Below are positions 10,177 to 30,113 of a stretch of 36,158 bases of DNA, piece after piece; the stretch's first letter is position 1; the number at the start of each line of letters is the position of its first letter. This DNA is from an uncultured Armatimonadota bacterium (GTDB taxonomy: Bacteria > Armatimonadota > Fimbriimonadia > Fimbriimonadales > Fimbriimonadaceae). The notes beneath the pieces are model-generated. The model was not told the DNA's origin. It searched no databases and saw only the letters and a list, made by a program, of their open reading frames with translations. The stretch lies in the NCBI GenBank assembly GCA_903833215.1, contig CAILEM010000063.1, positions 1 through 36,158 of the forward strand, written 5' to 3'. The position numbers were made by a program, and so were the translations under genes.

Positions 10177-10392
10177 ATGCGAACTACGGTGACTTTCGAT
10201 CAAGACGTAGCTGCAATTCTACGTCCGTTACTCGCTAACGGAGAGCCTCAGGTAGTCATGAACGATCTATTGCGCATCGTGCTTGGCATCAAGCGCAAAA
10301 TTATCGTTGATTTGCCCGTGTTTGACCTAAGACTCACACCCGGGATAGATCCAGCTGGACTAAACAACCCAGATGACACTTTGTTCGAATAA
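10177..10392 (+). CDS. orphan VapB-like antitoxin
   Basis: This encodes 71 residues. MRTTVTFDQDVAAILRPLL matches the ribbon-helix-helix start of VapB/CopG-like antitoxins, followed by a helix (VMNDLLRIVLG) and a variable tail. I chose the ATG at 10177; an upstream ATG at 10084 would lie inside the esterase gene and adds an unrelated stretch. No PIN or other toxin frame follows, so it is an orphan or the survivor of a decayed pair. The downstream plus strand shows no recognisable toxin fragment. Confidence 0.65.
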   Translation: MRTTVTFDQDVAAILRPLLANGEPQVVMNDLLRIVLGIKRKIIVDLPVFDLRLTPGIDPAGLNNPDDTLFE

Positions 10393-10495
10393 AACGATTT
10401 TCTCTGGACTCATAGGCCCAGAGCTGAAGAATCCGCTGATTTGAGTCTTGGGTTCGATTCAGTTCCGGACGAAATTGGTCGTTCATTGACCTGGT

Positions 10496-10615
10496 GTAGA
10501 CGGCATTGATCCAACCCATGGCAGCCGGTCGATGATGAATGGTTACACACCCTTCGATCGATCTGTCGACACGAAACCCCTTGGGTGCATCGCTTAGGTA
10601 GGGATCGAGATCCAT
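10496..10615 (-). pseudogene. truncated copy of the gene at 18.0-18.6 kb
   Basis: The first 33 residues (MDLDPYLSDAPKGFRVD, then GCVTIHHRPAAM) match the start of the broken gene at 18562-18014 (MDLEPLFIDPPKGFRVD, then GCVTIDHRSAGM) at most positions. Similarity fades after about residue 38, just where the first membrane helix should begin, although the frame stays open to 10334. No two-helix region follows in any frame, so this is probably a 5' fragment of a paralogue. Confidence 0.6.
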
Positions 10616-10715: not shown

Positions 10716-11246
10716 TCACTTCTTTTTGAAATGCTGAACCAATTTGTCCAACTCCAGCTGGTTTCCTTGCTCAAAGAACTTCCTAAGCTGGACCGATTCT
10801 GGGGTCGTGTTGAAACCCATCATCCGACAAGTAACACGCGTCTTCGTCTTTCCGATCGGCTCGAAGTAGAGGTTTACCCAGGTCTTCTTGATCGCCTCCT
10901 TGAATGGAAATCGGTCTGGTGTGCGAACCGTTTGCATGGATACCATGCGCTCTGGATCGAAACTCAGAATTCGATTTTCGATCACATCTGGTCCCGTGAG
11001 GTCGCTTCCCTTTTTGTAGGACGTGCGCATGTAGCCACCCACTCGGAGGTCCACCGCGCTGGCGGCAACCATCCATTTGTTCAGCTCTTTAGGATTTGTG
11101 TAAGCTCTCCACACCTCCTTGAGCGGTCCTTGGACAACCGCTGTGGCAACTGCTGGATCGGTGGCATTCTGAGATGCTCGAACAGCACCACTCATTCCAA
11201 AGGCGGCTAACGACAACAGACCGAACTTGACTAAATTTCTCTTCAT
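10716..11246 (-). CDS. exported SRPBCC-domain protein
   Basis: The start at 11246 is preceded by GAGGGA at a good spacing and gives MKRNLVKFGLLSLAAFGMSGAVRAS, a typical signal peptide (176 residues in all). The mature part follows the AHSA1/SRPBCC pattern: VVQGPLKEVWRAYTNPKELNKWM, VDLRVGGYMRTSY, VNLYFEPIGKTKTRVTC. An exported AHSA1-like protein is less usual than the cytoplasmic type; a periplasmic ligand is implied but unknown. It is the last gene of a minus-strand set: the ATG follows the VOC stop codon by 1 base. Confidence 0.8.
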   Translation of the reverse strand: MKRNLVKFGLLSLAAFGMSGAVRASQNATDPAVATAVVQGPLKEVWRAYTNPKELNKWMVAASAVDLRVGGYMRTSYKKGSDLTGPDVIENRILSFDPERMVSMQTVRTPDRFPFKEAIKKTWVNLYFEPIGKTKTRVTCRMMGFNTTPESVQLRKFFEQGNQLELDKLVQHFKKK

Positions 11247-11247
11247 G

Positions 11248-11610
11248 TTAATTTCCCTCATTAAACTCGGCTAGCCCAAATAGGTTGCCGTCGACATCTT
11301 TGAAGTAGCTTACGAACCCTACATCACCTATTGGCATTTTCGGAACGACGATGACTCCGCCAGCGGCAGAAACCTTTTCACAAAACTCGTCCACACAGGG
11401 CACGACGATCGAGTTTACGACGGATTGAGACTCCTGCTGACGCAAAATCACCGCACCATCAATCCCCGGTTCTGGGGCGTCGCCCGTACTGCAGAGCCAA
11501 TAATCTTCTTGGCCAAAACGATTAAATCTCCACCCGAACACGTCGTGATAAAACAACATCGACTTTTCTGGATCGGAGCTGTGTACTTCGAAATGCATTA
11601 CTCTAGGCAT
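11248..11610 (-). CDS. VOC-family (glyoxalase-like) protein
   Basis: This 120-residue protein has two beta-alpha-beta-beta-beta halves of a vicinal-oxygen-chelate fold: MHFEVHSSDPEKSMLFYHDVFGW opens the first, and SYFKDVDGNLFGLAEF closes the second. His6, Glu8 and the late Glu (LAEF) are plausible metal ligands. It resembles short single-domain VOC proteins of unknown substrate that travel with SRPBCC proteins. Its start overlaps the TPR-like gene by 8 bp and it is followed at once by the SRPBCC gene, so they are probably one transcript. Confidence 0.82.
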   Translation of the reverse strand: MPRVMHFEVHSSDPEKSMLFYHDVFGWRFNRFGQEDYWLCSTGDAPEPGIDGAVILRQQESQSVVNSIVVPCVDEFCEKVSAAGGVIVVPKMPIGDVGFVSYFKDVDGNLFGLAEFNEGN

Positions 11611-12436
11611 TTGTATTGTTTTCCTTTTTTCTTTCTGGGGGTATCCCCCCGGAAATCTGTAGTTGTTTTGCCTGCCTAATTTTCGGCAGGAGAATGTCTC
11701 TCACGTAGTGCCAATAGGGCACCAGTTTGAGGGCTTGGATTGCAGCCCGTTCGGCCTCCAAAAGCTGAGGTGGAGTCGAATTGAGTTTTGACCAAGCCGT
11801 GTTCATCAGCAGTTCTGGCTTTCCCCAACTCGGATGAATGGAGTCGCCATCCTTCACCGTTTGGGTCTCGCAAGCTTGGAGACCTTTGTCGTAGGCGGCA
11901 AAGGCTCGTGCTTGTCCGCCGCCTTTGCTTTCAGGCAGATGCCAAAGCATCGGACCCTTCACCCAAAACAATCGAGGATTGTTCGGGTCGGTGACCTCCG
12001 CATCCCTCAACAGAGGTACGAATTTGCCAACCAATCGCTTTACCTCTGCTTGATCAGAGCCCGCCAGAAAGGCGAGGTTCATGAGGCAGGCTGCTTCTGC
12101 AATCTTGGCGTCGGTGAATTCTCGGTCCAATCGAAGTGCCTCCTCAAATTCCTCAGCTGCCCCTCGGAAATCTTGTATAAGCATCGGGGCACTCACCTTA
12201 TCGTTCATGCCGTTCAGTCCCTTGCGCCACATTGCAAAGCCACGCCAGTAACGCAGAAAGGATTCTTGTTTTGGGTTGACGAGCAGGCCATCGGACAGGG
12301 TGTATAGGCTGTCCAGCAATTCAGTATCGCCGGCATAGTCAGCCCGGCGAACCTGACGTACAAAACTCTCTAGAGTCAGGATGACGCGGGGAGCATGATT
12401 GAGTGAGGAGAGCGCAAGGACGGCAGCGAGGAACAT
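11603..12436 (-). CDS. exported TPR-like repeat protein
   Basis: This encodes 277 residues, with a possible N-terminal signal (MFLAAVLALSSLNH). Helical repeat pairs are visible around 88-125 (FRGAAEEFEEALRLDREFTDAKIAEAAC in pieces), 175-195 (ARAFAAYDKGLQACE) and 225-245 (LEAERAAIQALKLVPYWHYVRDIL). These fit tetratricopeptide-like repeats that hold partner proteins. The function is unknown. It overlaps the VOC gene by 8 bp and follows the AraC-type regulator gene, which probably controls the set. Confidence 0.65.
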   Translation of the reverse strand: MFLAAVLALSSLNHAPRVILTLESFVRQVRRADYAGDTELLDSLYTLSDGLLVNPKQESFLRYWRGFAMWRKGLNGMNDKVSAPMLIQDFRGAAEEFEEALRLDREFTDAKIAEAACLMNLAFLAGSDQAEVKRLVGKFVPLLRDAEVTDPNNPRLFWVKGPMLWHLPESKGGGQARAFAAYDKGLQACETQTVKDGDSIHPSWGKPELLMNTAWSKLNSTPPQLLEAERAAIQALKLVPYWHYVRDILLPKIRQAKQLQISGGIPPERKKENNTNA

Positions 12437-12493
12437 GGTTCATAGTGTTCCAGGCTACATGCCCCTAACATCTGACCGGAAATGCTACTTTCG

Positions 12494-13378
12494 CTACAAG
12501 CTGATCGGGATGCAAAGTGTGGCGTGGAGGTCATTTGGGGCTGACAAGTTGAATCGCATAACCTGGAAGCAGGGCTCCTCGCGCAATGTCGCCCGGGATG
12601 CAGGCAACGCCTCTGCCCAAATCTTCAACCACAAATCGCCAACGTCGGCTCCAGGTCCTTTATGAACGACCACAAGATGGAGCCCACCACCAAGGGAGGC
12701 AAGTTCCAAGCCTTCGTGGTTTGCGAACTCTGCCGGTGCGGCCACGAAAGTCGCGATTTCCTTGACGGCACGACCGGGTCCCAGACCATGAGCATAAGTT
12801 GCTACCGGGTGAACATCCAAGTCAAATCCCCAGGGCTTCAAACTGGCCACAAGATCCCGTGCCGACTTGGCGACGAGGTGGGGGGCACCCATATGTTGTC
12901 GTGACGCAACTTGCATCGAAGGAATCTCTGTCAACTCGAATGGCATTACCTCACCAACCAAGGTGAGAGCCTCAAATCTTGGCTGACCGTCGGGAGTGAA
13001 ATGAAACCTTGACGGGGCCAAGAGGTGGTAAGCGCTCCACCGGGCGAATCGAAAGGTCGTTGCGGGTGAACCAAATGCGATCCTAAAAGCGCGCGCAAAT
13101 GCTTCCTGGCTATCAAATTCAGCATCGAACGCGATCTCAGCTATCGGTTTTTCGGTGTTTTGGAGCTGCCACGCCGCTCTCTCGAGGCGAAGTCTCCGCA
13201 CAAGTTGAATGCAGTTCTCACCCACCAGCCTGCTGAACACGCGTTGAAAATGGAACGGCGACATACATCCGATATCCGACAGTTGCTGAACTCCCAGACT
13301 CTCATTCAGGTGATCGTGCACAAAGCAAAGCACATCACCGAGTCGCAGGCAATATTCGGCGTAGGTCTCTTGCCGCAC
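12494..13378 (-). CDS. AraC-family regulator with GyrI-like effector domain
   Basis: The N-terminal part carries two AraC HTH units: LGVQQLSDIGCMSPFHFQRVF and IAEIAFDAEFDSQEAFARAF, each matching the family. From about residue 135 a GyrI-like (SOUL-type) ligand-binding domain follows (ELTEIPSMQVASRQHMG, VATYAHG, LHLVVVHKGP). Such proteins often sense drugs or small hydrophobic molecules. I take GTG at 13378 as the start (294 residues) because a -10 CATACT lies 6 bases upstream; the longer frame from a TTG at 13417 would include that promoter. It heads the TPR-VOC-SRPBCC set and may regulate it. Confidence 0.85.
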   Translation of the reverse strand: MRQETYAEYCLRLGDVLCFVHDHLNESLGVQQLSDIGCMSPFHFQRVFSRLVGENCIQLVRRLRLERAAWQLQNTEKPIAEIAFDAEFDSQEAFARAFRIAFGSPATTFRFARWSAYHLLAPSRFHFTPDGQPRFEALTLVGEVMPFELTEIPSMQVASRQHMGAPHLVAKSARDLVASLKPWGFDLDVHPVATYAHGLGPGRAVKEIATFVAAPAEFANHEGLELASLGGGLHLVVVHKGPGADVGDLWLKIWAEALPASRATLREEPCFQVMRFNLSAPNDLHATLCIPISL

Positions 13379-13384
13379 GTGGCG

Positions 13385-13413
13385 AGTATGGCATCTTGCC
13401 CAGCATTCCCCAA
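13385..13413 (-). promoter_or_regulatory. candidate promoter of the AraC/GyrI-like gene
   Basis: On the minus strand a -35-like TTGGGG (13413-13408), a 17-bp spacer and CATACT (13390-13385) end 6 bases before GTG at 13378, suggesting a leaderless transcript. Confidence 0.4.
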
Positions 13414-13465
13414 GCAAGAGGCGTTCTCAAGAGAGCTCTCAGCCGCATTGCCATGACCATCTCAC

Positions 13466-13939
13466 TCATCGAGGTCGATGGACGCGTTTATATATCGCAT
13501 CGTAAGAGGTCTTCCAGGTGTATCCGTCTTTGCTGAACTCGATAACTTGATGGACATCGCCGCGTGGTAGTCGGGTTAGTGTCGTGCGATCTTGAAATTG
13601 CCTACCATCGGGAAGAAAGACGTGGCCAGAAAACCGCATACCGCTCGGCGAAGGTTCAGACACCTTTTCTTTGTACACACCGGCCTCGGTTACCCAAACT
13701 TGTTTCCACTGATGTTTTGCTGGCATGTAGTAGAAAAGGCTCTTCCCGGTTGATCCAGTGACGTCTTTCCAATTCTCGATCACCGCGAATCCGGAAACGG
13801 ACTTCTCAATCACGTCCATGCCATCGAATTTCCCATCCGAGTAAACCTTCCACTTCCCCACCCAAAAATCCAATTCAGTGCCAGCCACCACTTTGGTGCG
13901 TGCCCCAGCCATCAAAGCCAGGGCGACCACTGTCATCAT
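13466..13939 (-). CDS. 'FDFWIGxW'-type exported protein, unknown function
   Basis: This encodes 157 residues. An N-terminal hydrophobic stretch (MMTVVALALMAGA) suggests export. The mature part starts with ELDFWVGKWKVY and goes on with VIENWKDVTGSTGKSLFYY, KHQWKQVWVTEAGVY and MRFSGHVFLPDGR. The repeated beta-strand pattern suggests a lipocalin-like barrel of a widespread uncharacterised bacterial family. It is a paralogue of the upstream broken gene and overlaps its final stop (ATGA), so the two were a coupled pair. No enzymatic motif is visible. Confidence 0.65.
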   Translation of the reverse strand: MMTVVALALMAGARTKVVAGTELDFWVGKWKVYSDGKFDGMDVIEKSVSGFAVIENWKDVTGSTGKSLFYYMPAKHQWKQVWVTEAGVYKEKVSEPSPSGMRFSGHVFLPDGRQFQDRTTLTRLPRGDVHQVIEFSKDGYTWKTSYDAIYKRVHRPR

Positions 13940-14445
13940 TTCTTAACCCGCACGTAGTGCAAGTGCCAAACGAGCGTCCAAGTCGCACCCGCGTCTCGGC
14001 TGGACTGCCAATCCCAATCAAAACTGTCCGCCGCGACGTTCGAAAATACCATTCGGGAGGCGGCCTTCGGCCGATCCGGTCGAGGAAGGGTTTGGAGCGT
14101 CATCTTGCCCTAAACACAGGTACCCGCTAATGCGATATAGCTCCCCTGATCGTCAACCCACGTCTGTCGCCACAGCTTCGCGGCTGGATCGAACACGGAA
14201 ACACTCGTGCCGTTGAGACCCCGCATTTTGAAGTTCTCACGAATCACATGGCCGTCGAAGGTTCGTTCGATTGAGTTGGTTGCTTCGGTGCGCGTGGACT
14301 TTCCATTCGCGTCGAAGCTTTCGCCAGAACACTTCCATTTACCGATCCAGAAATCGAACTGATGCGTTTCAGGCGGCAAAGCAGTTTGAGCAAGGCTTGG
14401 CATAGTGATTGTCAAGAGGAGAGCGAATGCTGGCGTCACGATCAT
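13936..14445 (-). pseudogene. 'FDFWIGxW'-type protein gene with in-frame TAG
   Basis: The frame starts at about 14445 with a signal peptide (MIVTPAFALLLTITMPSLAQT) and the family motif HQFDFWIGKWKC. It reads through ENFKMRGLNGTSVSVFDP and WRQTWVDDQGSYI up to TAG at 14110-14112. The same frame goes on directly with GKMTLQTLPRP, RMVFSNVAADSFDWDWQSS and WTLVWHLHYVRVKK to TGA at 13936-13938. The part after the stop is typical family C-terminus, so one nonsense codon has cut the last third. The restored gene would have about 169 residues and share ATGA with the next gene. It is a real mutation or a base error. Confidence 0.75.
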
Positions 14446-14481: not shown

Positions 14482-14510
14482 CATAACACAAACTATTAAT
14501 TCACATAACA
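14482..14510. promoter_or_regulatory. CATAACA direct repeats in the divergent promoter region
   Basis: CATAACA occurs at 14482-14488 and 14504-14510, a 22-bp period (two helical turns), each followed by an AA two bases later. The site lies between the MocR-type gene and the divergent broken gene. MocR and GntR regulators often bind repeated sites near their own promoter, so this is a candidate operator. Confidence 0.4.
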
Positions 14511-14533: not shown

Positions 14534-15946
14534 ATGGAAATCACAATCGACCCAAGCTTTGGCCCGACGTACAGGCAAATCGCGGAAAAGATCCGGTCAA
14601 TGATCCTGGATGGTGAACTCCCTCCAGGGGCATGCCTACCATCTGTCCGCGCCTTGTCCACCATGGTCGGCACATCTACTTTGACCGTCCATTGCGCCTA
14701 CAAGCTGCTTGCAGACCTTGGCCTTGTCGAATCACAACCACGGCAAGCGACGAGAGTTATCAGACGGATCGCCGGTGATAGTGGAAGGATCATGCTCGAT
14801 CGCCTTCCCAACTACGGTCCTTTGTCCAGTTTCGAGGTCGTTGCCCAGTCGAGTGGGATTCGCTCCATGGCATCCTCCATCGGCGACCCATCGCTTTTCT
14901 ATTCTCAAGACCTTTTGACTGAATTCCACCAACTCCGAAGCGGAGATCCCTGGGACTTCTACTACTCAAATCCAGCAGGCGCGCCAGAGTTACTAGAACA
15001 GGTTGCGCGCCTACTATGCCAGGACAGGATTGCATGCAATGAGTCAGATCTCGTGATAACCGACGGTAGTATGCAAGGCATCTCCCTCTTACTAGATATT
15101 GCAACTCGCCCTGGAGACTCCGTCCTCGTTCAGGAACCTGGCCGTCTTTGGCTCAAAGAGCTATTGCTATCCCATCGGCTGACCGCTATCCCAATTCGAT
15201 CCGGCACTGATCCTATCGACCTCGACCATGTCGGAAGATGCATCGAGCAACATCGCCCGACTGCAATGATCCTCAGCCCAGATTTTGGTCACGCAACTGG
15301 ATTGGTCATGAGTGAACGGGACCGCCTTGACTGCATACGGCTAGCTCGCGACAATGATGTTCTCATCATCGAAGATGGGGCAACCAGACCCCTGCGGTTT
15401 GGGGCACGAAGCGAGATGGCGCTAACCGCGCTCGATTCAACGACATGCGCTTATGTAGGCTCATTTTCCTACAGCCTCTGTCCAGGTGTAAGAACTGGAT
15501 TTCTGCGGCTATCGACGAAACTTCGACTGCCTGCGATTACCGTTGCTCAAGCGAAGGGGCAAGGTGGATCGAGGTTCCTTCAGCTTTGCCTTGCCCGTTA
15601 TCTTGGGAGTGGTGCCTATGAATCTCACCTCGCACGGATTCTGCCTCGGTATCGTGCTCGAAAAGATGCCATGCTTTCCGCTTTGGCGACAGCAATGCCC
15701 AGGTCCATCACTTGGACGAAGCCCCAAGGCGGACTCTCAACTTGGGTGGGGTTAAGTCCGGGCACGTCTGCCTCCGAGTTGTATGCGAGAGCGATCAAGC
15801 TCGGTATTACCTTCGCTCCTGGGCAGCTATTCCTTACCGCAGGAGATCCACAGCGATACCTGCGTCTCTCCTACGGCATGCTAGAACCTGCCGAGTTACG
15901 GGAAGCTACTCGAGTATTGGCCAAAATCGTGAAGACCCCAACATAG
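14534..15946 (+). CDS. MocR-type regulator with aminotransferase domain lacking the PLP lysine
   Basis: I take the ATG at 14534 (470 residues), which begins MEITIDPSFGPTYRQIAEKIR, the normal start of a MocR protein; a longer frame from 14405 overlaps the divergent gene. A GntR winged helix spans about 8-80 (LPSVRALSTMVGTSTLTVHCAYKLL in pieces). A fold-type I aminotransferase-like domain follows to the end. Typical landmarks are altered: the usual GSFSK(S/T)LxPGxRxG box reads GSFSYSLCPGVRTG, with Tyr313 in place of the lysine that binds PLP. The SPDFGHATG segment stands where SPSHQxPTG is usual. IIEDG (Asp281) and the LRLSYG arginine remain. It may bind a different ligand or non-covalent PLP. 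Target genes are unknown. Confidence 0.85.
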   Translation: MEITIDPSFGPTYRQIAEKIRSMILDGELPPGACLPSVRALSTMVGTSTLTVHCAYKLLADLGLVESQPRQATRVIRRIAGDSGRIMLDRLPNYGPLSSFEVVAQSSGIRSMASSIGDPSLFYSQDLLTEFHQLRSGDPWDFYYSNPAGAPELLEQVARLLCQDRIACNESDLVITDGSMQGISLLLDIATRPGDSVLVQEPGRLWLKELLLSHRLTAIPIRSGTDPIDLDHVGRCIEQHRPTAMILSPDFGHATGLVMSERDRLDCIRLARDNDVLIIEDGATRPLRFGARSEMALTALDSTTCAYVGSFSYSLCPGVRTGFLRLSTKLRLPAITVAQAKGQGGSRFLQLCLARYLGSGAYESHLARILPRYRARKDAMLSALATAMPRSITWTKPQGGLSTWVGLSPGTSASELYARAIKLGITFAPGQLFLTAGDPQRYLRLSYGMLEPAELREATRVLAKIVKTPT

Positions 15947-18013: not shown

Positions 18014-18562
18014 TCATGGCAAGGGCGCTTTCTGAAAATCCACACCAGCCCACGCTGCGAGGATACAACCAAGCCATGAGCTTGTTGGATAGGGCTGACG
18101 GACAATGAGACGAATCCGCTTTGGAGCATGAATCTCGAACGCCCAGCTTGGAAAGCTATCTTCACCTAAGCCACCGTCTTGAATCTGCTTAATCGATTTA
18201 ACATCTGCTTTCAAGATTCGGCGACGCTTCTCAAGTCCTAGAAATCGAATCACGAAGATGACTTCGTCATCGCGGATTTGGAATGTTCTCCGCGCAAACA
18301 CTAAGTAGGAGGCTAAAACCGCGAATCCCATGCCCGCCGCGAAAAAAGGTGCGAAGGTTTGTCGACCAGCAGAATCACTCTTTTCACCCTCTTGAATGAG
18401 AAGCGTTATCAGAATCCCGTTCCATTAAAGGAGCCACACGACGAAGAATGCATTCATGCATCTCATACCTGCCGATCGATGGTCAATCGTTACACACCCA
18501 TCAACCGAGCTATCGACGCGAAAACCCTTTGGCGGATCGATAAATAGTGGCTCAAGATCCAT
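18014..18562 (-). pseudogene. two-TM PH-like protein gene with in-frame TAA
   Basis: One reading frame runs from ATG 18562 to 18014 and is broken only by TAA at 18425-18427. It opens with MDLEPLFIDPPKGFRVD and GCVTIDHRSAGM. The first membrane helix would read AFFVVWLL-stop-WNGILITLL, where the WNG matches the 'fWxGf' of a widespread family with a PPGhxhe start, two helices and a C-terminal PH-like half. The second helix is APFFAAGMGFAVLASYLVF, followed by RTFQIRDDEVIFVIRFLG and the helix-rich tail. The stop sits within the conserved helix, so the protein is probably inactivated. A 5' fragment of a paralogue lies at 10496-10615. Confidence 0.7.
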
Positions 18563-18871
18563 GCTTTTGATGTTACGCAAATTCTGAGAGTCATCGCATA
18601 ACGTCTGAACTCGGACTTCCTCTTTCACCACTGATACAAGAATCTTCTCTTTGCTTGTCAGATCGCCATAAGGAGCCGTCAAACGACCGACATTCGATGA
18701 ACTTTATGCCCTCAAGCATGAATATCAGGCAAAAAGTCGCCTGTCAGCGTAACCGTAAAAGCCATGACATAGTTAGTAGTCGCAGGGTGAACTAGCTCCC
18801 AGAGCGGTCGAGGACAAACCCATTCTCAATCCGGTTCGACAGTCAACAGTGCGACATTGTACTATTGATCC
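18563..18871. other. intergenic region, possibly holding decayed coding sequence
   Basis: The 309 bases before the cyclophilin gene have no intact gene. On the minus strand fragments in shifted frames read like coding (MAFTVTLTGDFLPDIHA, then IKFIECRSFD, then PYGDLTSKEKILVSVVKEE), which may be a gene broken by frameshifts upstream of the two-TM pseudogene. I cannot name a family. The cyclophilin promoter is at the right end. Confidence 0.3.
18835..18865 (+). promoter_or_regulatory. candidate promoter of the cyclophilin gene
   Basis: TTCGAC (18835-18840) and TACTAT (18860-18865) are separated by 19 bases. The ATG follows after 6 bases, and no ribosome-binding site is present, so the transcript is probably leaderless. 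Confidence 0.45.
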
Positions 18872-19514: not shown

Positions 19515-20273
19515 CTAGCCAACTTCGACTCGAACGCCACCACGCAAAACAATGGCGTCTCTGAGTTCATCGAGGCGGTCACTTGACATTGAAGGCACGC
19601 CAGCCAGTGGCACTCGAATGCCAAGGGCTTCGTACTTGTGGCGACCTAGTGAGTGATATGGAAGCAACTGGGTTTGCGCCACTTGCCGCGAAATGCGGGC
19701 TATCTCTGAAAGATGCCGACCGTTAACGTTGGCTCCATCGATCAATGGACACCTCAAAATGACATTGGCTCCAGTTGCCACCAGTCGCTTCCGAGTCGCC
19801 GCGATGGCCCGATTGTCGACGCCGGTCAACTCCTGGTGTTCCACGGAGGAACTGGCTTTGTAGTCCAAGAGGAAAACATCGGTGATGGGAAAGAGCCGAG
19901 CTAAAAGGGAGGATCCAAACAACCCGGTCGTATCGAGGCACGTATGAAAACCAAGACTCTTCGCTTCAGTCAGTAGTTGCACAAGAAACTCCGGCTGCGC
20001 AGTGGGCTCTCCGCCGGATACGGTGAGTCCGCCTCCGGACCGTTCGTAGAAGGCACGATCCAACTCCACGACCTCTAATATTTCATCAGCAGTGGCAGAT
20101 CGAGATTTTGGCGCTGATTGACCCTTGAGCCAAGGTCGAGCCCAAGATTCAGGGTTATGGCACCATCTGCAGCGGAGTGGACATCCTTGGAAGAACACCG
20201 TCGTGCGGATGCCCGGGCCGTCGTGCATCGCTGATCGTTGGATGTCAAAGATCACCCCGGTCAACTTAGTCAT
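19515..20273 (-). CDS. glycyl radical enzyme activase (radical SAM)
   Basis: The ATG at 20273 gives 252 residues; the frame is open further upstream but that part overlaps the enzyme gene. The radical SAM cluster motif CPLRCRWC (Cys31, Cys35, Cys38) follows DGPGIRTTVFFQG, the activase signature, and HNPE follows it. GGLTVSGGEPTAQPEFL is the SAM-binding GGE loop. The extra ferredoxin-like domain with eight cysteines seen in many GRE activases is absent, so it is compact, as PflA is. It would cleave SAM to make a 5'-deoxyadenosyl radical and put the glycyl radical on the adjacent enzyme. The gene overlaps that enzyme gene by 8 bp. Confidence 0.88.
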   Translation of the reverse strand: MTKLTGVIFDIQRSAMHDGPGIRTTVFFQGCPLRCRWCHNPESWARPWLKGQSAPKSRSATADEILEVVELDRAFYERSGGGLTVSGGEPTAQPEFLVQLLTEAKSLGFHTCLDTTGLFGSSLLARLFPITDVFLLDYKASSSVEHQELTGVDNRAIAATRKRLVATGANVILRCPLIDGANVNGRHLSEIARISRQVAQTQLLPYHSLGRHKYEALGIRVPLAGVPSMSSDRLDELRDAIVLRGGVRVEVG

Positions 20274-22383
20274 GAACCGTCCGCTCCAGAATTTCTCGCT
20301 GTATGTCGGGAGCAAGATCCACAAATCGAGCACTAAATCCGCCAACTCGAACCATGAGATGCCCCCACTTTTCCGGTTCCAAGAGTGCCGCCTCCAGGTC
20401 TGCACGATTGACGACAGTGATCATCGCCTGCGCACCTCCCTTCGCGAAATACACGTCGAGCAGTGACTCAAAAAGTGGGCGTCGGCGTTTTACTAGGTCT
20501 GGGGAGAACTTCATGTTCTGAACTGCCCCCGCGTGCAAACTCGCGTCAAGCTTAACCAGTGAGTTGATGAACGCGGTCACTCCATTTCGATCGTTTCCTG
20601 GAGCCGGATTGTTCGCATTCGCAAAGGTATCGCCTGAACTCCGGCCGTCCGGAGTTGCTGGCGTCAATTGGCCAAAGAGCACATTGACGGAATTGTTAAT
20701 GATCACGATGTGGTGGCGATCCCAACCAATCCTTTCCCCGGCGCGGTTAGCACTTCCACAAGCTTGTTCGTGAACACGAACCGCCCACCGATCCCCATTA
20801 GGGTCATCGTTGCCATATTTCGGAGACGACACCAATGAATGCCGCAGGTCCTCGCTACCTACCCAATTGGCACGAATCGCCTCCCGCATTGCATCAAGGC
20901 TTACTCTCGTGTGTTCGATGGCCGCAAACGAATCCGCGACATTCGTGTTCCCATAAGTCTCGACACAGGCGGTCACATATCGACTTCCCCCGGCAAGCAA
21001 CGTCTTATCCCGGTTGACGCAGTCACTTCCGAGGACACTGGCGACAATGAATGCTGCCTCTGTTCCGGTGACATCGTAGATGTGACGCTGATAGGCGGCA
21101 AGCGCCTCCATTCCACGATCGACTTCCAGGCAGTAACGCTGCCACAGCTCGTCAAGAGAGTTCGGCACCGATCCCATTACGCCCATTGCCACGCCTGTCT
21201 GAGGATGAACACCACCAAAGAGCGCGATCAGAAGGCACAGTGGCAGATTCATGACGCCATTCGGCGACGACACGCTACAGTGACTCAAAACCGTTTCCCC
21301 GCAGCCGTAGGGCAGATATTGCTCGGCTTCTTCCTCCGTAACTCTAAACGCCCGAGAAACGGCGGGGACATAGACGTCGTCGTTATAGAGAATCGGAAAC
21401 GTCACGCCTTCCGCAATGCTATCAAGCCCCCGCCGAAGCAGGTCCGGATCCTGGCCACCGTAGAACCGGAGGGATAGCTGCGGCTGATCTCTGCGAACAC
21501 GACGGCTCGCCTCAATCGCAATCCGGGCGAATGCGTCGGCGGCTTCTGGGTTCTTTCGCCCTTTCCCTCCAACAATGACGCGGTTATTCCACTTGTTGTC
21601 GTACTGTGAGATCAGGTCCCAAAGCGCCACAACCAGATCGGTAGCACTCTCGTCAGTCAGGCTGCCATCTTTCAAGTCTGCTTGGAGGTAAGGGCCAAGG
21701 ATGTCGTCCAGCCGACCATAGTTCCAAGTCCCTGATGAAAGGGCGACGATCCAAAGCAATTGAATCGCGTCTCGGACTGAAGCTGGTGGGCGATTCTGGA
21801 TCGCTAGCAATGAATCGGCTATGTCGGTTGAGCCAAGCTGACGGGCCTGATCGACATAGGTGGAAATGACCCTTCTCAGGATCGCGCAAAGAGACTGAAC
21901 CGGTGCCGACCAGAGCGGCGACTCCTCTGTGTTCTGTTGAAGCCCAGCAGTACCCCAACTGAGTAGTTTCTCGTAATCGAGCACGATCCCACCGATTCGG
22001 TAAAGCGGGAATGCCGGTCGAGACTCCGTCATCCATTCATCGCTTGGCAATGCTTTGGATGCTTCGAAGGGTGCAGACTCGCGAATGAGTTCCCTGGTTG
22101 TTCGTCCTTTCCAGAACTCGAACATCGATTGGACCGCTGCATTCGGCCGATGATTACATTGGGCGAGGATGCGGGCGACGTCGCAGTAGTAGCCGAGCCC
22201 ACCAGGCTCCAAACTGATCCCGACATACGGGTAAGCGACTCTCCCCGCAAACCTGTCGCCCGGTTGAATCGGCTGGAACAGCAGCGGCAAGAAGACCTCA
22301 AGAACCCGCGTCTCGCGCTCCACAGCCGGAAGGTTCCAAACTTCTTGGCAACGTTGGGTGATGAGCAGTTCGCGTTCTAGCAA
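20266..22383 (-). CDS. glycyl radical enzyme of the pyruvate formate-lyase superfamily
   Basis: This 705-residue protein is a complete glycyl radical enzyme. The radical site is RVGGFSARF near the C-terminus (Gly682), preceded by VVNRADLEAALLEPEKW. The active-site loop reads YLPYGCGETVLSHCS: Cys361 is the thiyl residue and Glu363 the usual general base of GCxE-type members. Pyruvate formate-lyase has two adjacent Cys there, so this is not PFL. Known classes include diol and glycerol dehydratases, choline lyase, and hydroxyproline and isethionate enzymes, but GCGET does not match any I can name with confidence. It starts at TTG 22383, with a GGGG about 9 bases upstream. It forms an operon with its activase. 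The radical is oxygen-sensitive, implying anoxic or microoxic use. Confidence 0.85.
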   Translation of the reverse strand: MLERELLITQRCQEVWNLPAVERETRVLEVFLPLLFQPIQPGDRFAGRVAYPYVGISLEPGGLGYYCDVARILAQCNHRPNAAVQSMFEFWKGRTTRELIRESAPFEASKALPSDEWMTESRPAFPLYRIGGIVLDYEKLLSWGTAGLQQNTEESPLWSAPVQSLCAILRRVISTYVDQARQLGSTDIADSLLAIQNRPPASVRDAIQLLWIVALSSGTWNYGRLDDILGPYLQADLKDGSLTDESATDLVVALWDLISQYDNKWNNRVIVGGKGRKNPEAADAFARIAIEASRRVRRDQPQLSLRFYGGQDPDLLRRGLDSIAEGVTFPILYNDDVYVPAVSRAFRVTEEEAEQYLPYGCGETVLSHCSVSSPNGVMNLPLCLLIALFGGVHPQTGVAMGVMGSVPNSLDELWQRYCLEVDRGMEALAAYQRHIYDVTGTEAAFIVASVLGSDCVNRDKTLLAGGSRYVTACVETYGNTNVADSFAAIEHTRVSLDAMREAIRANWVGSEDLRHSLVSSPKYGNDDPNGDRWAVRVHEQACGSANRAGERIGWDRHHIVIINNSVNVLFGQLTPATPDGRSSGDTFANANNPAPGNDRNGVTAFINSLVKLDASLHAGAVQNMKFSPDLVKRRRPLFESLLDVYFAKGGAQAMITVVNRADLEAALLEPEKWGHLMVRVGGFSARFVDLAPDIQREILERTVHD

Positions 22384-28385: not shown

Positions 28386-30113
28386 CTAAGAGGGTCGGTC
28401 ATCTCGATTCTCGGCGATAACCGGTGAATTCTGGGGGATCGGAAAGGCCAGTGCCGGGCGCGAGTCTGATCGTTTGCACGCTATCCAACCATCCCGAGCC
28501 ATCGCTTCCAGGCATCCAAGGATATGCATTCGGTTAGCGGGCCCAAATCCTGTGCCCGTTTCATTGAGTCGATATTCGGCATATCCTGTGATTTCGTCGA
28601 TGTAGGAATTCCTTTCGATCGCCTCCACAACGATGCCGATCACGCCGTGAAGGGGAAGAAACTTGCCATCGCGCACTCTCGCCGGGAGCGCCTGGACCCG
28701 TCCGTTTGCGTACTTGGCGATACGAATTTCGTCCGACCCTCGAAATCTGAGGAGAAAAGTGTTGAATCCCTCAAGCGAGACATGTGAAGGAGCATCGGAT
28801 AAGCGCCCAGCGATTTGATGGAGCGCACGAATCGCGACGGTGCCAAACCCACCGGTTCCCATATCCTCTTCAATGAACCCACCGGTGCCGAGCCATTGAA
28901 ATGCCTTCTCTGCGTCCAGTTCTAGGCCAGCGTCGCGCGCGATTTCCCGTGTGTATTCCTTAAGCTCCGAAAAATTCGCGTTAGCGGTGTACCAATAGTC
29001 GGCAAAGCGAATGTGCTGTAGCACCCGTCGGCGATTTCGTCGCTCATATTCCTGCTTGAGCCACCTTCGCTCAGGCTCTTTGTTCCCAGGCCGTAGCGCC
29101 TCAAGGGTGCTAAAAGCGCACTCGCGCGCTGAAATATGGGCGAGGGTGAGTCCAGCCGCCAAGATTGGGTCTGCGAATCCGAGCGATTCGCCTACCAGAT
29201 ACCAGTTCTCCCCTACCATCCGCTCGGCGACAAAACTCCAATCTTTCGTCGTCGCAAACTTCCCTTCAGGCGTGGCCTTCTCGACTAACGAGCGAATGCG
29301 AGGGTCCTTCTCGATTGCCTGCCGATACAGTTCCTCGGGCGTTTGCCCACTGTTCTTGTAGTAGTCAGCAGGACATACGAGGCCGATAGAGGTTCGGGTC
29401 GGACTGAGTGGGATGAACCAAAGCCAGCCATATCCCACCGACATCACCTGAACACGCGTTCCCCCGATGCCGATGCTCACTGCCCACTCAGCGTTCTGCC
29501 AGTAATCCCAGAAGGCCACGTTTCGCAGGGCGCTCGGTTCTTCGATTCCAACACCCATTGTTCGACGAAGCAGCCCAACGTGCCCGGAGGCATCGATATA
29601 GGTTTCCGCTTCAATTCGTGTTCCATCCCCCAGAAGCAGACCCGTGACACGATCCCCGCTCCGTTCAACCGTTCTCACCGATGTATCGAACCGAACGTCG
29701 CATCCCAAAGAGGCAGCGTGATCGGCAAGGATCTGGTCATAGATCGCTCGATCCACTTGAAAGGCCGTCTCAAGCCGTTGCCCGGCAAAGGTCGCCGGAC
29801 GAGGCTCATCGTGGAATTCGCCATTTGGCAAGAAGTGAAAGTCCCAAAGGTCGTCTGTCTTTCCCCAGCGATACGTCGCCCCGATCTTCACGGGAAACCC
29901 AGCCGCCTCGACTGCATCCCAAGCGCCCAGCTCGTTCAGTATCTGCCCAGTGAGAGGAAGTTGACTCTCGCCAACATGTTCTCGCGGGAATATTTCGCGT
30001 TCCAAGAGGGTGACGCTCAGCTCTGGGCAGTATTTCTTCAGAAATCCCCCGCAGGTTGCGCCAGCAGGGCCTGCACCAATAATGGCAACGTCGGTCTTCA
30101 ATGTTTCAGGCAT
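28386..30113 (-). CDS. flavin-dependent halogenase-like FAD oxidoreductase
   Basis: This encodes 575 residues. The Rossmann motif is VAIIGAGPAGATCGG (GxGxxG at 13-18). Two halogenase hallmarks are visible: Lys76 in FPVKIGATYRWG, matching the catalytic lysine, and WLWFIP at 230-235, matching WxWxIP. NWYLVGESLGFADPILAAG is the second FAD-binding region. After about residue 430 there is an extra C-terminal part with a possible winged-helix or alpha/beta module, absent in classic halogenases. It may halogenate or otherwise oxidise a phenolic or indolic compound. There is no flavin reductase next to it. It is divergent from the antiporter gene. Confidence 0.78.
   Translation of the reverse strand: MPETLKTDVAIIGAGPAGATCGGFLKKYCPELSVTLLEREIFPREHVGESQLPLTGQILNELGAWDAVEAAGFPVKIGATYRWGKTDDLWDFHFLPNGEFHDEPRPATFAGQRLETAFQVDRAIYDQILADHAASLGCDVRFDTSVRTVERSGDRVTGLLLGDGTRIEAETYIDASGHVGLLRRTMGVGIEEPSALRNVAFWDYWQNAEWAVSIGIGGTRVQVMSVGYGWLWFIPLSPTRTSIGLVCPADYYKNSGQTPEELYRQAIEKDPRIRSLVEKATPEGKFATTKDWSFVAERMVGENWYLVGESLGFADPILAAGLTLAHISARECAFSTLEALRPGNKEPERRWLKQEYERRNRRRVLQHIRFADYWYTANANFSELKEYTREIARDAGLELDAEKAFQWLGTGGFIEEDMGTGGFGTVAIRALHQIAGRLSDAPSHVSLEGFNTFLLRFRGSDEIRIAKYANGRVQALPARVRDGKFLPLHGVIGIVVEAIERNSYIDEITGYAEYRLNETGTGFGPANRMHILGCLEAMARDGWIACKRSDSRPALAFPIPQNSPVIAENRDDRPS

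Follow-up and report, generated by a model that had tools for sequence, protein, structure and literature searches.

A clade of MocR-like regulators without the PLP lysine in Fimbriimonadaceae

Introduction

By definition, MocR regulators count as PLP-dependent, and a survey found the PLP lysine conserved in every MocR cluster (PMC6677901). The window analysed here, a stretch of 36,158 nucleotides that belongs to a 6.2-Mb genome of an uncultured Fimbriimonadaceae bacterium, encodes a protein of MocR shape with a tyrosine at this position. This raises the question of whether a sensor built around a cofactor can dispense with it and, if so, what such a regulator may respond to and control.

Results

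A MocR-like protein by architecture and fold

The gene and its two domains are located as follows.

14534..15946, + strand: Lys-less MocR-like regulator, 470 aa (translation, Pfam GntR, NCBIfam MocR models, clade searches)
14567..14758, + strand: GntR winged helix-turn-helix (wHTH), residues 12-75 (PF00392)
14816..15943, + strand: aminotransferase-fold (fold type I) domain, approximately residues 95-470 (PDB profile match, AlphaFold2 model, fold search)

The 470-codon reading frame runs uninterrupted from the ATG at 14534, with a GTG at 14405 as an alternative start. Its N-terminal part matches PF00392 with 56.6 bits (E 2.1e-15). The best NCBIfam model, matched over the full length, is that of PdxR, the MocR-type regulator of PLP synthesis. 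However, the score of 226.8 bits is below the curated cut-off of 320 bits of the PdxR equivalog NF052282, and unlike PdxR the window protein lacks the lysine and has no pdx genes nearby. The C-terminal domain matches the PdxR, YczR, EhuR, rhizopine MocR and GabR models over most of the model length, all below cut-off, and misses the threshold of Pfam PF00155, which four relatives reach.

The assignment of this domain to fold type I is backed by a PDB sequence profile and by the predicted fold. An AlphaFold2 model built from five sequences (pLDDT 74.8, pTM 0.69; linker 78-100 poor) has the GabR/LysN fold: the top Foldseek match is GabR (4n0b, E 3.6e-30) over the whole length, and the VIA Z against KAT-II, LysN and related enzymes is 38-40. 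The LysN/kynurenine aminotransferase II group provides the nearest solved aminotransferase domains in sequence and fold, but its members are active enzymes that carry the Schiff-base lysine and have no wHTH. By architecture and fold the window protein is MocR-like, and it shares with Bacillus subtilis GabR (MocR/GabR subfamily) the combination of a wHTH and a fold-type-I aminotransferase domain.

The Schiff-base lysine is replaced by tyrosine

Five positions of the PLP site are referred to below.

15470..15472, + strand: Tyr313, codon TAC, at the PLP lysine position (AAT Lys258, GabR Lys312)
15290..15292, + strand: His253, at the AAT Asn194 position
15383..15385, + strand: Thr284, at the AAT Tyr225 position
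15491..15493, + strand: Arg320, kept phosphate arginine (AAT Arg266, GabR Arg319; alignment, GabR role from PMC6917764)
15863..15865, + strand: Arg444, kept carboxylate arginine (AAT Arg386, GabR Arg430; in all alignment rows, GabR role from PMC6917764)

In alignments to solved aminotransferases, Tyr313 falls exactly on the Schiff-base lysine, with GSFSY facing GSFSK in LysN and GTFSK in KAT-II homologues. The first-pass annotation had described this box, with tyrosine in place of lysine and an altered motif around it, and the alignments bear out both points: two further contacts to the PLP ring are missing, Asn194 being replaced by His253 and Tyr225 by Thr284. The window protein thus differs from GabR at the lysine and at both ring contacts, while the carboxylate and phosphate arginines are kept.

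A misalignment or a shifted lysine is ruled out, as the window protein has no other lysine within 17 residues of the PLP site. The same annotation had judged a read error unlikely from the codon, and this is now confirmed. Read error or chance can be excluded because an independent assembly (G036) has the same TAC codon and no member of the clade described below has the lysine. Since the defining lysine test (PMC6677901) fails for the window protein, we file it as a Lys-less variant and not as a PLP-dependent MocR.

The site has not lost every cofactor contact. Asp281 is the equivalent of Asp222, which contacts the pyridine nitrogen, and the phosphate arginine and the phosphate-site serines are still present. 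Because of these residues, loose PLP binding is possible in the window protein: PLP, PMP or an adduct of PLP might be held without a covalent bond, and the signal sensed would then be vitamin B6 or its adduct with an amino acid. Arguing against this, equivalents of Asn194 and Tyr225 are absent, and EnuR with its lysine changed to histidine carries no PLP (PMC8739950). The relatives of the window protein bear further on this point.

Ten Lys-less proteins group together

We searched 101 relatives, 291 genomes of Armatimonadota and 85 genomes of Fimbriimonadaceae. Ten MocR-shaped Lys-less proteins from eight Fimbriimonadaceae genomes group together, and the named records retrieved with the clade profile are MAGs of Fimbriimonadaceae and Armatimonadetes. 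The residue at the lysine position is Tyr in the window protein and in G036, Ser in G161, Gly in G007, Asn in G003 and His in G181 and G182; G183 and the second paralogues of G181 and G182 have Thr there or cannot be aligned. Thus, among the close homologues it is the absence of lysine that is conserved (10/10) and not the tyrosine (2/10), which rules out tyrosine as a conserved functional replacement.

In an unrooted maximum-likelihood tree, a single branch with support 100/100 separates the ten proteins from 21 others; an earlier tree with fewer sequences split eight Lys-less proteins from 19. The lysine is present in all other compared Armatimonadota MocRs and aminotransferases and in two gammaproteobacterial ones. 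Its absence is not the norm of Fimbriimonadaceae, since canonical GSFSK or SSFSK MocRs coexist in several carrier genomes, including that of the window (contig C74) and, as second copies, G007 and G161. The PLP lysine is universal among active fold-type-I enzymes, so a single loss is the simplest reading of the tree, although an unrooted tree cannot prove it. On these alignments and this tree, the Fimbriimonadaceae clade probably shed the PLP lysine once.

One MocR of Loigolactobacillus backii (L047:7962-9410, + strand) also lacks the lysine, with GTLST and hence Thr at this position. It was counted with the others, not with the Lys-less ten, in the tree test. Its position in the tree, away from the clade at the end of a long branch, and its retained Asn194 and Asp222 make a separate loss in another phylum likely.

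Genus g30 carries a second, still more degenerate Lys-less paralogue, in which Arg266 is also lost; it is located after a gene for a propeller protein that ends in a PEP-CTERM-like way (L145:6312-8704, L146:5960-8388, L111:8362-10963).

PLP contacts are lost while other residues become invariant

Over eight Lys-less alignment rows, the AAT-equivalent residues fall into two groups. Lys258 and Asn194 are found in none, Tyr225 in 1/8 and Asp222 in 3/8, whereas Arg266 is kept in 7/8 and Arg386 in 8/8. Several positions are constant in the Lys-less rows and variable in the canonical rows, including Gly95-Pro96, Glu101, Arg110-Ser111, Asp118, Trp140, Tyr143, Arg368, Arg376, Gly424 and Gly448. In its N-terminal part, this signature is largely readable in the second paralogues as well. 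Two of its elements are located in the window as follows.

14861..14863, + strand: Arg110, invariant only in the Lys-less clade
14951..14965, + strand: Trp140 to Tyr144 (WDFYY), of which Trp140 and Tyr143 are invariant only in the Lys-less clade

Close pairs are under purifying selection. For the G181/G182 pair, dN/dS is 0.065/0.59, or about 0.11, with the same result for the aminotransferase domain alone; for the pair of second paralogues, dN is 0.07 and dS is saturated. The aminotransferase domain is therefore not free-running debris. The pattern of lost, kept and gained residues suggests that the clade gave up PLP chemistry but held on to the carboxylate arginine and to a new set of residues. 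Because the PLP lysine is missing from the window protein and all nine close relatives, bound vitamin B6 is probably not part of how this branch works, and the proteins would respond to something else, if to anything.

These observations sharpen the earlier proposal that the protein has no covalent PLP and may sense another ligand. The proposal is sustained by the shared, monophyletic loss of the lysine and Asn194, the near-complete loss of Tyr225, the retention of Arg386 and the purifying selection. A functional swap of Lys for Tyr is not, given the residues Y, Y, S, G, N, H, H and T or unalignable. Non-covalent PLP, which had also been proposed, is conceivable for the window protein itself but unlikely to characterise the clade as a whole, since members have lost Asp222 and one sub-branch has lost Arg266. 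In addition, no vitamin B6 genes adjoin any clade member. We therefore consider it improbable that the window protein still uses PLP in this way.

Alternatively, the aminotransferase domain may be a dimerisation scaffold only, and the protein a ligand-blind constitutive repressor or autorepressor. The engineered EnuR K302H behaves like this, as a constitutive repressor without PLP (PMC8739950); its histidine occurs naturally at the same position in two members (G181, G182), and the most degenerate clade members are also without Arg266. EnuR K302H is a laboratory mutant that has lost induction; the Lys-less clade is natural and under selection. Against the scaffold reading, Arg386 and the new residue set stay constant at a clade identity of about 36%, and a need for them in pure dimerisation is not obvious. 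Because these residues are invariant, we favour a ligand over a ligand-blind protein, and we regard the scaffold-only alternative as rather unlikely.

The neighbours are predicted envelope proteins

In four genomes (window, G007, G003 and G161), the regulator gene and a small gene for an exported DUF1579-type protein stand back-to-back. The window genes are located as follows.

14110..14445, - strand: divergent exported DUF1579-type gene, likely target, cut early by an in-frame TAG at 14110-14112
13466..13939, - strand: second, distant DUF1579-like gene, next downstream of the first (30% identity to the first over 104 aa)

The second gene is possibly co-transcribed with the first, judging from the gene order. 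DUF1579 homologues occur in 23/85 Fimbriimonadaceae genomes and in 8/8 Lys-less carriers (hypergeometric 1e-5, kinship ignored). Most Fimbriimonadaceae copies stand without a MocR, which rules out an obligatory link between the two. In a structural model (pLDDT 72), the G003 DUF1579 protein consists of a leader helix and a ten-stranded barrel. The best matches of this barrel are the OlmO/OssO spirocyclases (VIA Z 16.6) and nitrobindins (VIA Z 13.5), and by this model the protein is a calycin-like small-molecule barrel.

The regulators of G036 and of the genus g30 genomes lack an adjoining DUF1579 gene. In g30, both paralogue groups instead come after a gene for a secreted NHL/SMP-30-like propeller whose end is PEP-CTERM-like. 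No GABA genes lie near the window regulator, which sets it further apart from GabR, and B6 genes are likewise missing there. Because DUF1579 barrels or propellers adjoin the regulators, the neighbours appear to be envelope proteins with no visible link to B6.

The in-frame TAG lies about two thirds along the window DUF1579 gene, in-frame homology resumes beyond it to approximately 13948, and the interrupted gene is the sole DUF1579 copy in the window genome. The TAG in this likely target indicates that the window locus may be decaying, and the missing lysine could in principle reflect a decaying gene or a sequencing artefact. The regulator itself argues otherwise: its 470 codons are intact at about 37% identity to the nearest relatives, the Tyr codon recurs in an independent assembly, every relative lacks the lysine and close pairs are under purifying selection. 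This explanation is thus highly improbable.

The same-strand run from the DUF1579 pair onward (10716-13939, - strand) encodes an AraC-GyrI regulator, an unnamed 277-aa protein, and glyoxalase-fold and AHSA1-fold proteins, and is possibly one operon.

Direct repeats as a possible operator

The gap between the divergent genes in the window is 88 bp and contains a direct repeat.

14482..14491, + strand: candidate operator direct repeat, copy 1, CATAACACAA
14504..14513, + strand: candidate operator direct repeat, copy 2, CATAACAGAA, 22 bp further

The repeat is unique in its own genome at up to two mismatches. Direct repeats spaced by 22-23 bp are found in three of the five upstream regions: besides the window, G003 has TCTAACAAT twice, 22 bp apart, and G161 has a 17-nt repeat with 82% match, 23 bp apart. 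For spacings of 21-24 bp, dinucleotide shuffling gives p values of 0.04 (window), 0.09 (G003) and 0.0005 (G161). The upstream regions of G007 and G036 contain no repeat at 21-24 bp spacing; that of G036 has CATAACA once in each orientation.

A common operator word across species was not upheld. No 6-mer is shared by four upstream regions and no 7- or 8-mer by three, and the best cross-species 8-mer is equalled in 12/300 shuffles. A sigma-70 promoter scan of the intergenic region gave no match.

Known MocR operators commonly consist of direct repeats spaced by two or three helical turns, and MocR genes commonly diverge from the genes that they control (PMC5320631). The form and place of the candidate operator fit this published layout, and the window repeats may be the operator of the Lys-less regulator.

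Discussion

We then propose a model for the Lys-less regulator. The aminotransferase domain would still form a head-to-tail dimer as in GabR, and the dimer would bind the intergenic direct repeats, whose spacing is close to two helical turns. The regulator would thereby control its own gene and the divergent neighbour. Repression can survive the loss of PLP, because apo-GabR, which cannot activate gabTD, still autorepresses in vitro (PMC6917764) and EnuR K302H still represses (PMC8739950). The signal, if any, would be a ligand in place of PLP aldimine chemistry, most likely a carboxylate. It is tempting to speculate that Arg444 holds this carboxylate with the help of residues specific to the clade, for example Arg110, Trp140 and Tyr143; both the ligand and the contact roles are guesses.

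In its general form, we consider this model fairly likely: a MocR-shaped one-component regulator that has lost the covalent PLP site, locally controls an envelope protein and, if it has a signal, senses a ligand by non-aldimine means. Points against the model are the interruption of the likely target in the window, the lack of an adjoining DUF1579 gene in G036 and g30, and the missing repeats in G007 and G036. The more specific version is put forward tentatively, namely that the PLP aminotransferase site became a pocket for a non-PLP ligand, with the carboxylate arginine kept and new invariant residues added, and that it controls exported beta-barrel or PEP-CTERM propeller proteins.

No report of a MocR without the PLP lysine, or of a natural Lys-less clade, was found in the open-access literature; others may exist. 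A natural clade of this kind under selection would show a cofactor-based sensor giving up its cofactor. It would allow tests on natural proteins of which MocR functions, such as dimerisation, autorepression and activation, need PLP, and would also let the re-use of an aminotransferase pocket for a new signal be tested.

Other genes in the window

Elsewhere in the window, a pyruvate-formate-lyase-like glycyl radical enzyme is encoded with its radical SAM activase (19515-22383, - strand), and a tryptophan-halogenase-like FAD protein adjoins a Na/H exchanger (28386-30113, - strand). Two short reading frames (10334-10615 and 18425-18682, both - strand) are 59% identical over 41 aa and perhaps represent a small repeated gene or element.
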